Source: a virus. From it: 42,492 nt of DNA. The DNA is taken from positions 1 through 42,492 of IMG/VR virus record IMGVR_UViG_3300009174_000010. One strand, given 5' to 3'. Position numbers and translations under genes: made by a program. Positions within the stretch are counted from its first letter, which is position 1. Each line of letters starts with the position of its first letter. The notes beneath the pieces are model-generated. The model was not told the origin of the DNA, made no database searches, and saw nothing but the letters and a program-made list of their open reading frames with translations. This document shows positions 28,267 through 33,043 of the stretch, in pieces.

Positions 28267-28590
28267 CTAGAGGGTCTCGAATCGCGCGGCCTCGAGCACG
28301 TTGCGGATCGCACCGCCGAGGGTCTCTTGTGTCACGCTCGAGAAGATGAAACCACCGGCGACGAGTTCGATCTCGTAGTGGTCTTTGACCTTTGCCATGC
28401 GCCGCACGCTTCGCGACGTGCCCGGCGCGCGCAACCAAACGTCGAGCAGCTCGAGCGCCACTTCGTCGCCGGCGGCAACGGTCTCGCGCACCGCAATCTG
28501 CATCGCGGGCTCTGCGTGCGCTGCGGCACGAATGCCGCGCAAGTCGGTCAACACTTCAGCAAGTCGGCTTAGCGTTTGCGTTTGATACAT
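28267..28590 (-). CDS. Hypothetical protein between terminase and portal, 107 aa
   Basis: I choose ATG 28590 (MYQTQTLSRLAEVLTDLRGI), because the 17-base dyad motif lies just upstream. An open frame continues to a TTG at 28641 and would add 17 residues. The protein has a helical N-terminal half (AAAHAEPAMQIAVRETVAAGDEVALELLDVWLRAPG) and a strand-rich second half (VKDHYEIELVAGGFIFSSV). Its strand matches the late genes, but it has its own putative promoter region shared with a divergent regulator. Function unknown; a small head or packaging accessory is possible. Confidence 0.55.
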   Translation of the reverse strand: MYQTQTLSRLAEVLTDLRGIRAAAHAEPAMQIAVRETVAAGDEVALELLDVWLRAPGTSRSVRRMAKVKDHYEIELVAGGFIFSSVTQETLGGAIRNVLEAARFETL

Positions 28591-28609
28591 GCGGTCAACA
28601 TGCCACGCC

Positions 28610-28626
28610 TTGCGGATGTCTGCAAA
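28610..28626 (-). promoter_or_regulatory. Dyad motif TTTGCAGACATCCGCAA (- strand copy)
   Basis: On the - strand this copy of TTTGCAGACATCYGC ends 19 bases upstream of ATG 28590. The oppositely oriented copy at 28669-28685 serves the divergent gene at 28733, so the pair forms a symmetrical control region about 75 bases wide. Three other related sites are listed separately. Confidence 0.45.
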
Positions 28627-28668
28627 CTCCTTTGTTTTCAAAGGAATAGTTCGGCGGTTTCCGACGTA

Positions 28669-28706
28669 TTTACAGACATCCGCTAATCTGGTAGACCTGG
28701 ACTACC
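28669..28706 (+). promoter_or_regulatory. Control region of RHH gene: dyad motif plus TGGTAG-N7-CTACCA
   Basis: TTTACAGACATCCGCTA (28669-28685) is followed by an inverted repeat TGGTAG-ACCTGGA-CTACCA (28689-28707). A palindrome with 6-base arms close to a ribbon-helix-helix gene fits an autoregulatory operator. A further inverted repeat, CCTTTG-TTTT-CAAAGG, lies at 28629-28644. These are visual findings without experimental support. Confidence 0.45.
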
Positions 28707-28732
28707 AAACTGCAACAAACGAAAGGCCCGAT

Positions 28733-29110
28733 ATGGCGACCCGCCGCACTGCAAAGAAACGCTCCGCCGCTGCCGATGAGTTCAAATACATCACGATGGG
28801 CTTTCGCTGTTACCGCAAGCACGCGGACCTCATCGAGCGAGCTGCGGCGTTGGTTCCCGTGAGCAACTCGAACTACATGCGGCGCATCGTCATCAACCAA
28901 GCAGCGGCGGATCTCGACGAAACGCCTCCCGACTTCTCAGAGCTTGGAGGTAGCGCGAGCCTCATCTCTGACGCAGCGAAAAAACGCGGTCTGACTGTCG
29001 CCGAATTCACCAAGCAGGCCGCGCGCGCTGCCGCAGCCGCCGAGCTCTCGACGCCTCCCGACCCGCCGCCATGGCCAGCAGGCAGACTCCCGCCACGCGG
29101 CGGACGCTAG
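28733..29110 (+). CDS. Ribbon-helix-helix-like DNA-binding protein
   Basis: The ATG at 28733 has AAGG about 8 bases upstream; an in-frame ATG at 28589 would run through the promoter region and is less likely. The 125-residue product has a basic N terminus (MATRRTAKKRSAAADEF), then YITMGFRCYRKHADLIERAA (beta strand plus helix A) and SNSNYMRRIVINQAAADL (helix B), the order of Arc/MetJ or DUF1778 folds. The C terminus is Ala/Pro-rich. It is the only + strand gene inside the late block. Its stop interleaves with the terminase stop at CTAG. A regulator of late or lysogenic genes is likely. Confidence 0.65.
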   Translation: MATRRTAKKRSAAADEFKYITMGFRCYRKHADLIERAAALVPVSNSNYMRRIVINQAAADLDETPPDFSELGGSASLISDAAKKRGLTVAEFTKQAARAAAAAELSTPPDPPPWPAGRLPPRGGR

Positions 29111-31608
29111 CCATACGGGTCGATTGCGCCGCGGTTGCCGGCTGCCCCCGCATACGGATCCATCGACTCGCCTCGCCCGCGCTGGTTTCCCTCTGGCGCA
29201 GGCGGCAGCTCTTCTAAGACGCGCTGTTCCCAGCACGCAAGGGCGCAGGCGTCGTACCGGTCGGGGCTGCGATGCAGCACCTTGATCAATACATCCTTGG
29301 GCGTGAGCTTCGACCGCTCGCCCTTGGGCGTGAGCTTCATCTTCAGTTCTAGCGCATGCAGTTCCGGGCCGAGCTTCAGATCGGTAGGTATCGCGCCGCC
29401 GGCGCGCATCCAGCTCGCCATGTTGCCGGCAAGCTCGTCGCGCCACCGGTCATAAATCAGCGGCTCTCGCTGCGCGTTGCTCGAGCTGCGAATGCCAAAC
29501 ACACGCATCACGCCCGGGTTGCTCGCTTCATACTGACGAAAGCGAGAGACGATGCCGGCGCCAACGCCTTCCGAATCAATGTTCACCGTCGCCGTCTCGC
29601 CAGGTCTGCCTAACTCACGAAGCAAATTCAGGGCTTCGCTCAAGTGCCCATCTTCATCGAGACCACGCTTAGCGTACAGCTTCAGAATGCGCTGACCTCG
29701 TCGGGCGGCGAATGCTGACTCGTCGCCAACGCCGCTCGGCCCCGCAGGGTCGATGCCGATGAATAGCGGGCCATCGTCGAGCACGTCTTCGAAGCGCTCT
29801 TCTGCCTCGCTGATAAGCTGCATCGAGAAGAGCTTGCCATCTTCGCCGAGCGCGTGAAGGCCAAGCACGCGCACTTTGTAGAACGCTGAATCTTCGCCCC
29901 ATTCGAGCTTGCGCGCCTCACACCATTCGAGCGTTGCGAGTCCTTTGACGACGACACGCCCTTCGACGCAATTAGGCGTCTCGAGCGAGCTAATGCGCAT
30001 CGTCTTGTAATTGCCGTGCTGCGCTTGCGTCTCGTCGTCGCTCTTCTGCTTGCGATAAAACGCGTCGTAAAACTCGCCCTCGTTTCGCGTCGGATTGCCG
30101 ACGAGAAGCAGATGACCGCCGCCGGCAAGGTTGCCCTTCAACGCGATGAAGATCGAAGTACCAACGCCGCTCGCCTCTTCGACGATGAACATGATGTTCT
30201 CGCCAGCGAGACCCGCCGTGCTCTCTGCGTCCTTCGCCGTGAAGCCTGAGACCTGACGGAAGTCGTCCGAGTGCATGCCGCCCTTGGCTGACTCTTTGAC
30301 GTATCCTTCTATCTTCGCCGAGTGGTTACACGGCGCGTGGATGTAGTCGGCGCGTGTCGCCGTCTTGTTGAACTCTTTGCAATCGAAGCACACGCCGCTC
30401 TCGGCAATGCGCATCTTGAGCTCGCGCCAAACAACCTCGTTCAGCTGCCGATCCGTCGGCGCCGTGATGAACACGCGGGCATTAGGAAACGAAGAGTAAA
30501 ACCAGAGCGCTATCCCTGCGACCGAGTAGCTCTTCGACACGCGATGCCCCGAAGCGCAGGCGTTCCAATCGTTATCTTGCACATTGAGCAAGAGCTCTCG
30601 CTGCCGGTCCCACGGCTTGCAGCCGAGTATGTAGTAGAAGAAACCTTCGATGTCTTTTTGAAAGCGCACGCAAGGCCAAGTGATCTGACTCACGGCTTTG
30701 AGCTCGCGCAGCATCTCGACGGCGAAAGGCTCGGTCAACGGCGCAAGCGTCTCTTTGGCGCACTCGAGCGCCTCGAGATCTGCGCGGAGCACCGCGCCCG
30801 TGTCAAACACGGCTTGCTTCCACGTGTCCGTACCGAAGAGCTCCTTCAGAGTCGAGCCGCCGAGCGTCGCCTTCTTGAGCAGCCGCGCAACCGTGTTTGC
30901 CTGAACGTCGAACTTGCTTGCGCGCTGCACGTTGCCGAGCGCCATGCGCGCAGCGGCTTCCGTACGGAGCGACGTTTGCAGTCGCTCGAGCTCCTTACGA
31001 CACGCGCGCAGCTCGACGACGGCGCCGGCGGTTGGTTGGTCCGGAAGGGCTTCCAAGATGCCGGCGTGCAGTTGAGGGTCAACCGCGAGCAGTTCAACGA
31101 GTGCCTTCCGCATCTCGCGAAAGCCGACGTGACACACAACGCGCTCGCGCTCCGTAAGCGTCTCGAGCGCTTCGTCGATGCGCGTCGCGATGGCACGCAT
31201 CTCGATCTGATTGGCCGGCAGCAGCTCGGAATCAGTCAGCCCCGCTTTGCGCGCGAGCCTCATTCCCTCGAGCAACGTCGCCGGCGGGTCGACGGTATTA
31301 CCTCTTCGAGCGGCACGCGCGGTCAAGCGCTCGACGACGTTCGGCACCGCTCGAGTAGGTAGTACCGGCGTAGCGCGCTCGACCTGGTTGGGTAGTACCG
31401 GCGCCGGCGGCGCGCGCCGCCAAGCGGTTGGCGCAATTCCCCAAAGCTTGAAGAGCTTCGAAGCGAGTTCATCGAGCGGTTTGATCTCACCCTTCTCGAG
31501 CTTCGAAACGGCGGTACGCGACACGCCGAGCGCTTTCGCTTTCTTCACTTGGCTGAGTTCAATTGCAGCCAGAGCGACCGACCCTTCGCTCTCGTCGAGC
31601 TTGCCCAC
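29107..31608 (-). CDS. terL: Large terminase subunit with N-terminal XRE-type HTH
   Basis: I place the start at GTG 31608 with AGGGG upstream (833 residues); a TTG at 31692 lacks a ribosome binding site. Residues about 12-50 form an XRE-type HTH: IELSQVKKAKALGVSRTAVSKLEKG. A helical middle of roughly 250 residues follows. The ATPase has Walker A-like CASGHRVSKS (351-360), Walker B IMFIVEEA (472-479) and motif III LLVGNPT. The nuclease has FIGIDPAG (D620), GDESA, VNIDSEGVGAG (D678) and DRYDACA (D786). TerL motors usually have about 450-600 residues and recruit a separate TerS. I see no separate TerS gene here, so the N-terminal region may supply DNA recognition. Confidence 0.87.
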   Translation of the reverse strand: MGKLDESEGSVALAAIELSQVKKAKALGVSRTAVSKLEKGEIKPLDELASKLFKLWGIAPTAWRRAPPAPVLPNQVERATPVLPTRAVPNVVERLTARAARRGNTVDPPATLLEGMRLARKAGLTDSELLPANQIEMRAIATRIDEALETLTERERVVCHVGFREMRKALVELLAVDPQLHAGILEALPDQPTAGAVVELRACRKELERLQTSLRTEAAARMALGNVQRASKFDVQANTVARLLKKATLGGSTLKELFGTDTWKQAVFDTGAVLRADLEALECAKETLAPLTEPFAVEMLRELKAVSQITWPCVRFQKDIEGFFYYILGCKPWDRQRELLLNVQDNDWNACASGHRVSKSYSVAGIALWFYSSFPNARVFITAPTDRQLNEVVWRELKMRIAESGVCFDCKEFNKTATRADYIHAPCNHSAKIEGYVKESAKGGMHSDDFRQVSGFTAKDAESTAGLAGENIMFIVEEASGVGTSIFIALKGNLAGGGHLLLVGNPTRNEGEFYDAFYRKQKSDDETQAQHGNYKTMRISSLETPNCVEGRVVVKGLATLEWCEARKLEWGEDSAFYKVRVLGLHALGEDGKLFSMQLISEAEERFEDVLDDGPLFIGIDPAGPSGVGDESAFAARRGQRILKLYAKRGLDEDGHLSEALNLLRELGRPGETATVNIDSEGVGAGIVSRFRQYEASNPGVMRVFGIRSSSNAQREPLIYDRWRDELAGNMASWMRAGGAIPTDLKLGPELHALELKMKLTPKGERSKLTPKDVLIKVLHRSPDRYDACALACWEQRVLEELPPAPEGNQRGRGESMDPYAGAAGNRGAIDPYG

Positions 31609-31616
31609 TACATCGC

Positions 31617-31673
31617 CCCTGCAACCGCGCAACGTTCTGCGGGTTCTCTCGACGATTGCACCCTGCAACCGCG
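31617..31673 (-). repeat. Direct repeat CCCTGCAACCGCG x2 at terminase start
   Basis: The 13-base sequence occurs at 31617-31629 and 31661-31673, 44 bases apart (about four helical turns), just upstream of the HTH-terminase start. The distal copy overlaps a palindrome TTGCA-CCC-TGCAA (31656-31668). Such paired sites are candidates for operator or packaging-site recognition by the HTH of the terminase. Confidence 0.5.
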
Positions 31674-31751
31674 ACGCGAGAACCCGGCGCAAAATAACGC
31701 GCGGGGGGGCGCAGGGCCATCAGAGCGCCTGCACTGTTTTTGCGCACCTTT

Positions 31752-32796: not shown

Positions 32797-32807
32797 TAGT
32801 AGCCTGC

Positions 32808-33043
32808 CGACGACCGTCCGACGACCGTCCGACGACCGTCGACGACCCTTGTTTTAGGCTCGACGACCCAAACGACGACCGTCGACGACCGATCCGGGTC
32901 GTCGGCTATCGAATTCGAGAAATAGCGAGCTTTTTGCGTATGGTCACCCGACGACCGTCGACGACCCACCGACGACCCTATTTCTCTAGTGCTTTTTGAT
33001 ACTTTTTAGGCCCGCCGACCAATCGACTTTGACCCCTCACGAT
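32808..33043. other. Candidate replication origin: helically phased CGACGACC iterons with AT-rich segments
   Basis: The gene-free spacer has ten direct copies of CGACGACC, starting at 32808, 32819, 32830, 32840, 32861, 32873, 32883, 32949, 32959 and 32970, and one inverted copy at 32897. Most spacings are 10-12 bases, one helical turn. The array is split by an AT-rich stretch (32909-32940) and followed by another (32978-33008). GAGAAATAG (32917) and CTATTTCTC (32978) are inverted copies of each other, and GCTTTTTG occurs twice (32929, 32991). Downstream lies the primase-ATPase gene. Iterons plus unwinding elements next to a replicase are typical of origins; an operator for the divergent genes is the alternative. 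Confidence 0.6.

Follow-up and report, generated by a model that had tools for sequence, protein, structure and literature searches.

A phage reading frame that probably joins a TerS-like part to the large terminase subunit

The locus and its terminase reading frame

We analysed a virus record that is 42,492 bases long and classed as linear; it is referred to here as the window. Its late genes are read leftward and begin with the terminase, which is followed by genes for a Mu-type portal (PF06074, E 2.3e-38), for an S49 protease and for a head protein like Mu gpT; judged by their sequences, the genes that follow look like those of a contractile tail. Those read rightward encode, among others, a primase-helicase, exonucleases and an integrase. 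Iteron-like repeats of CGACGACCGT (32807-32979) occupy the region from which the early and late genes diverge; they are longer than the 13-bp pair described below and likely represent an operator or an origin. A gene weakly resembling ribbon-helix-helix mobilisation proteins (NikA-like, below cut-off) stands in the opposite sense between the terminase and the portal (28589-29110, plus strand); its start carries an inverted repeat of 15 nt (28612-28683). An array of eleven 15-bp units occupies the left contig end (2-166).

On the minus strand, positions 29107-31692 form one uninterrupted open frame of 861 codons. The preliminary description had placed the end of the gene at 31673, a position that is not a start codon. 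We regard the GTG at 31608 as the probable and best start; AGGGG at 31616-31620 provides a ribosome-binding site 7 nt upstream of it. The start is put there because the N-terminus of the fused protein can then be aligned with the N-termini of the separate proteins described below, which works only from this codon (SEGSVALAA with SEGQRMFL). Codons 1-28 of the 861-codon version contain the 13-bp repeats and lack the GC2 dip typical of most of the gene. Residue numbers in the text refer to the 861-codon protein (P0001), and those of structure models count from the GTG. The features are collected in Table 1.

Table 1. Terminase gene of the window, its predicted domains and the elements upstream of its start
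Feature	Position	Strand	Remarks
Probable TerS-TerL fusion gene	29107..31608	-	Probable GTG start, 833 codons; 861 from in-frame TTG 31692
XRE-type helix-turn-helix domain	31417..31590	-	P0001 residues 35-92; Pfam HTH_3, separate-gene profile, five-helix model
Linker, partly disordered in model	31282..31416	-	pLDDT < 50 at model residues 73-87
R1, helical, resembles C-terminal domain of separate TerS-like genes	31045..31281	-	Residues 138-216; hhalign
R2, probable second copy of R1-type helical domain	30745..31023	-	Residues 224-316; hhalign, model helix order
Large terminase, ATPase and RNase H-type nuclease	29110..30741	-	Residues 318-861; phrog_2
13-bp repeat, copy 1	31661..31673	-	Inside hairpin
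13-bp repeat, copy 2	31617..31629	-	Overlaps ribosome-binding site
Imperfect inverted repeat, strong hairpin	31640..31686	-	Just upstream of start; arms 31640-31654 and 31672-31686, 87% complementary

The C-terminal part of the frame is a large terminase subunit (TerL), matched by phrog_2 at residues 359-853 (E 2.6e-29). The motifs SGHRVSKS (30529-30552), FIVEEASG (30166-30189) and GNPT, which we take to be the Walker A-like motif, the Walker B-like motif and the coupling region of a packaging ATPase, are present and align with those of relatives. Asp648 is conserved along with the ATPase motifs in the relatives that cover these positions, and D648, E708, D811 and D814, presumably the catalytic acidic residues of an RNase H-type nuclease, are invariant in four aligned sequences. 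The ATPase and nuclease motifs are kept, and the TerL is intact. TerL proper starts near residue 318, where a helix followed by 'ITWP' corresponds to the first helix and 'xRFP' of relatives (BLAST similarity is weak, best E 0.074). An ATG at residue 327, common to the window and to a second fused contig (L005), was considered as an internal start for TerL alone and rejected, there being no good Shine-Dalgarno sequence in either. The ATPase is related by sequence to the TerL structures 4znj (E 8.8e-5) and 4zni (E 7.4e-4), presumably of Thermus-type phages, whose chains of 274 residues are, however, without the fused N-terminal part.

Ahead of the TerL, Pfam HTH_3 matches residues 46-83 above its curated cut-off (E 1.4e-5 with the whole protein, 2e-6 with the N-terminal part). 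Together with the phrog_2 match in the same frame, this agrees with the initial claim of an XRE-type helix-turn-helix (HTH) joined to TerL, and the middle region, which had been put at some 250 residues, measures about 225-245 residues between the HTH and the ATPase and is mostly helical. Of the families then suggested for a profile check, XRE was recovered through HTH_3, and phrog_4102, a small terminase subunit (TerS) family of PHROGs, gave no match. The long helical region expected before the ATPase was borne out by an AlphaFold2 model of the fused N-terminus (mean pLDDT 87), which is nearly all helix except for the linker.

The TerS-like region and its separate counterparts

A scan with a profile built from the first four TerL sequences retained 80 viral loci. 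Among 97 TerL loci, whose records are partly redundant, a TerS-like part was counted at 56. In one of these (L005) it is fused, and at the other 55 (56 if L087, which was dropped by an overlap filter, is included) it is a separate gene upstream of TerL. These genes have about 180-255 codons. Their products start with an XRE HTH, whose end is marked by 'GIPxxAW', and a variable linker joins it to a C-terminal domain that is helical. Of the 55 genes, 37 end no more than 200 nt from the TerL domain, and 18 lie farther away, with genes or gaps between. The 41 loci without a TerS-like part are mostly distant TerLs; they include the filtered L087 and several that are truncated by the end of the contig. 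In uncultured phages and Myxococcota prophages alike (for example L009 3812-4408, L026 53-643 and L084, frame 2-652), the separate genes show the same order of HTH, linker and helical domain as the fusion and adjoin the same TerL family, but they have their own stop codon and one helical domain, compared with apparently two in the fusion.

A profile of 14 separate genes (A2), in which no window sequence was included, matched the window at 31045-31593 (E 9.5e-17) and the L005 record (E 2.6e-13), in both cases inside the TerL frame. At E <= 0.1 it matched all 51 records searched, 14 of which had supplied the profile, some matches in this count being a second HTH gene or a contig-end fragment. 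At the same threshold the window held no second TerS-like match, and none was found among 10 further ORFs that we examined. The absence of a separate small terminase gene noticed at first inspection therefore stands for the window, as searched with the 14-gene profile and with phrog_4102. None of the profile and domain libraries names the separate genes as TerS, and our comparison points to an unannotated TerS-like family in phages related to Myxococcota prophages. Two traits of a TerS were found, an N-terminal HTH and, in the relatives, a gene directly upstream of TerL; the helical domain after the HTH, seen in the model and by profile similarity to the separate genes, may correspond to the oligomerisation domain of a TerS. 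The relationship is detected by profiles alone: the window N-terminus as a single query gave no match to L002, L003 or L004, and tblastn with it or with the separate gene of L009 revealed no similarity to annotated phages (E <= 0.01, 50,697 records).

Several relatives depart from the usual arrangement. The helical TerS-like domain occurs without an HTH in L004 (7590-7910), the HTH and the helical domain are on two genes in L042 (1-291 and 993-1769), and a second small HTH-only gene with the same type of HTH lies just downstream of TerL in L007, L009, L016, L017, L040 and others. In L099, from a Myxococcota genome (G379), some 340 residues interrupt the TerL at Walker A; they bear LAGLIDADG signatures (PF14528, E 7.1e-12) and most likely represent an intein, in which leucine stands at the position expected for the first splice residue.

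The two halves of the TerS-like match differ in strength. The HTH half of the separate-gene profile matched at E 3.3e-12 in the window and 5e-12 in L005 (against 1000 shuffled copies, the values being scaled to 1000 sequences). The alignment with the 14-gene profile continues through to residue 216, the end of R1, but its C-terminal half alone did not score above shuffles, and significance there needed a profile of 43 genes, that is, of 43 helical domains. Against this profile R1 reached an hhalign score of 34.0, a value attained by none of 300 column shuffles (maximum 19.5), and R2 reached 25.7, attained by none of 600 (maximum 19.3); the maximum among 129 windows taken from other proteins of the window, which served as a natural control, was 15.9. 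Single-sequence scores were 31.6 for R1 and 10.6 for R2 in the window, and 19.3 and 27.1, respectively, in L005; the family match of R1 is thus mainly through the window sequence and that of R2 mainly through L005. Since the direct comparison of R1 with R2 was not significant (62 of 150 shuffles reached its score), we argue for a duplication from the family match of each copy. The middle region appears to contain two copies of the helical domain, of which R1 is clear and R2 moderate; we put the chance of R2 being a genuine second copy at little better than even.

The predicted structures fit the layout HTH-R1-R2-TerL. In the model of the fused N-terminus, five HTH helices are followed by the disordered linker, a helix at 87-101 and two runs of helices, 112-122, 126-149, 153-159, 161-176 and 178-187 in the first and 196-223, 227-247, 254-258, 261-275 and 278-288 in the second, in the same order. 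The model of the separate L009 protein (pLDDT 92) has the same five HTH helices and then helices in matching order (97-112, 119-153, 155-168 and 172-196). Foldseek found no match in the PDB at E <= 0.001 for either model. With VIA-align, the separate-gene model retrieved XRE domains, the best being P22 c2 (Z 8.3, 61 residues aligned, rmsd 1.8 Å), and the fused model retrieved designed helical repeats or 14-3-3 proteins, no better than chance for helical models. The PDB matches listed for the two models are general XRE and helical-bundle structures, the helical ones being unspecific, and include no solved TerS, which excludes nothing.

The fusion in L005 is 53% identical to that of the window over its whole length and 62% identical over 68 residues at the junction; its frame starts at the contig end, and its first residues lie outside the contig. 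A quick tree was computed from 82 TerLs, leaving out truncated, duplicate and interrupted sequences (L003, L033, L035, L038, L048, L053, L090 and L099). In it the window and L005 are sisters (support 100) within a set of 34 (support 98), no other row of which is fused. Because the two fused contigs thus form one clade nested among two-gene relatives, the fusion is, on the evidence of this tree, derived from the two-gene state and not an error, and as far as seen it arose once. Scans of viral contigs with the N-terminal alignment, R1 and R2 yielded no further fusion, only L005 and the separate genes of L084 and L085, and none was found in 377 Myxococcota genomes, 13 of which have a TerL at E <= 1e-10. 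No natural TerS-TerL fusion was found in the open-access literature, most subscription papers lying outside the scope of the search. By these comparisons, the fusion is seen in two contigs, and its relatives encode two proteins.

Upstream repeats and other readings of the N-terminal part

Before the start lies the exact 13-bp direct repeat CGCGGTTGCAGGG, its copies 44 bases apart from start to start, as the preliminary description had recorded. Such a repeat is unusual, since shuffling the 600-bp region 500 times produced one of 13 bp within 100 bp in 0.4% of cases, but the window has six more groups of such close repeats beyond its first 200 bases. The hairpin that encloses copy 1 has an RNA-fold z of -3.5, reached by none of 200 shuffles. 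Neither repeat nor hairpin was seen upstream of the 14 separate genes (three of whose start positions are approximate). Instead, L016 has a 9-nt inverted repeat, the near copies L012 and L015 have another 12-bp repeat common to both, and L040 and L022 have 10-bp repeats; L005, the sole fused relative, ends before the repeat region. The further proposal of a paired recognition site gained nothing beyond the presence of the repeat. A packaging site is unproven because the repeat was not detected ahead of the separate gene in these 14 relatives, and a function in expression is no less likely than one in recognition because copy 2 overlaps the ribosome-binding site. Operator, translational switch and packaging site are all conceivable roles for the repeats.

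The hairpin bears on the possibility that the N-terminal part is a transcriptional autoregulator, whose XRE HTH would bind 31640-31686 and repress the packaging operon in the manner of phage repressors. XRE repressors are indeed the nearest structures to the HTH, as the P22 c2 alignment of the separate-gene model indicates, and the inverted repeat with its strong predicted fold lies directly at the start. We nevertheless think this explanation unlikely: in L004 the helical domain stands beside TerL with no HTH at all, so that its link with TerL is independent of a repressor, and the repeat and hairpin of the window were absent before the 14 separate genes, although that of L016 is preceded by a 9-nt inverted repeat.

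The fused part could also be a packaging accessory, the true TerS being a phrog_4102-type or other gene outside the contig, which is classed as linear and may be incomplete. A phrog_4102 gene lies upstream of TerL in 11 of the 51 records, and in those relatives (L006, L007, L009, L011, L012 and six more) it and the HTH-helical gene both precede one TerL. However, it belongs to another family, and it was not found in the other 40 records, including those of the window, L005, L002 and the Labilithrix genome; those of its carriers that are in the TerL tree all fall within one set (15 rows, support 98) that holds no fusion. The HTH-helical gene, by contrast, is almost ubiquitous. From this distribution, the HTH-helical gene is the more constant partner of the window type of TerL, and we consider the accessory role improbable.

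We attach a lower probability still to R1 being a remnant of a sigma-70-like gene. Such genes separate the TerS-like gene from TerL in three relatives (L002 825-1688, L044 about 695-1324 and L051 about 544-1473), and the NCBIfam sigma70-ECF model matches P0001 at 147-275 (E 9.5e-5), the R1 segment (0.0019) and the L005 segment (0.088), but none of these matches comes near the family cut-off. Against this, Pfam Sigma70_r4 does not match R1 of either fusion, R1 scores much higher than shuffles against the TerS-like helical domain and lies at the place expected for that domain, and the sigma carriers form a clade of their own (support 100) outside the 34-row set that contains the fusions. Finally, a sequencing frameshift joining two overlapping genes, which in many relatives do overlap or touch in different frames, is hardly conceivable and is refuted by L005, unless two contigs of 53% identity with a conserved junction carry the identical error.

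Proposed working of the fused terminase

We consider it probable that the window encodes a natural fusion of the small and large terminase subunits in a tailed phage with Mu-like head genes. The suggestion of a motor with built-in DNA recognition held up: the N-terminus matches the separate HTH-helical gene of most relatives, and two independent contigs are fused, so that the presence of DNA recognition within the motor protein is well supported by sequence comparison. TerS is described as consisting of an HTH, oligomerisation helices and a C-terminal contact with TerL (PMC6854486, PMC9958956), and in P22 the C-terminus of TerS is reported to bind the N-terminus of TerL (PMC9611059). Because the TerS C-terminus contacts TerL, a junction between these two termini is geometrically natural. 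In the fusion, the HTH would bind the packaging-initiation DNA of the phage, the helical part would assemble the chains into a ring, as in TerS rings, and the covalent link would hand the bound DNA in cis to the ATPase and nuclease of the motor part, which from its anatomy would cut and translocate it. With recognition covalently linked to the motor, there would be no separate TerS to recruit.

The same arrangement would set the stoichiometry. TerS rings of 8 to 12 subunits are reported (PMC9611059), the lambda enzyme has been proposed to be (TerL-TerS2)5, with ten TerS (PMC10810279), and for HK97 an upper limit of 5 TerL per motor is given (PMC9410871). The manner in which the two subunits come together before packaging, and the ratio of TerS to TerL, are described in the last of these sources as still open, with 9:2 for P22 and 2:1 for lambda. 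A pentameric motor built from the fused TerL would carry five HTHs and, provided that both helical copies count as ring units, ten of the latter; five fused chains could thus form a ten-unit ring. The fixed TerL-TerS2 unit of lambda terminase (gpNu1 and gpA) resembles the possibly two TerS-like oligomerisation domains per fused TerL, but lambda uses two proteins and two HTHs per TerL, whereas the window fusion has one HTH. We put forward only tentatively, as a reading that may well prove wrong, a one-gene terminase in which a tandem-duplicated TerS ring domain is carried on TerL; its pentamer with a covalent ten-unit ring would be the (TerL-TerS2)5 of lambda in one polypeptide, and a single molecule would recognise, cut and translocate the DNA without turnover of TerS during packaging. 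During translocation the recognition part would stay on the motor, unless it is cleaved off or trails along.

A natural fusion would fix the ratio of TerS to TerL, and the disputed ratio would thereby become testable. It asks directly whether TerS can remain on the motor during translocation, and it would offer a single-chain holoenzyme for structure work.
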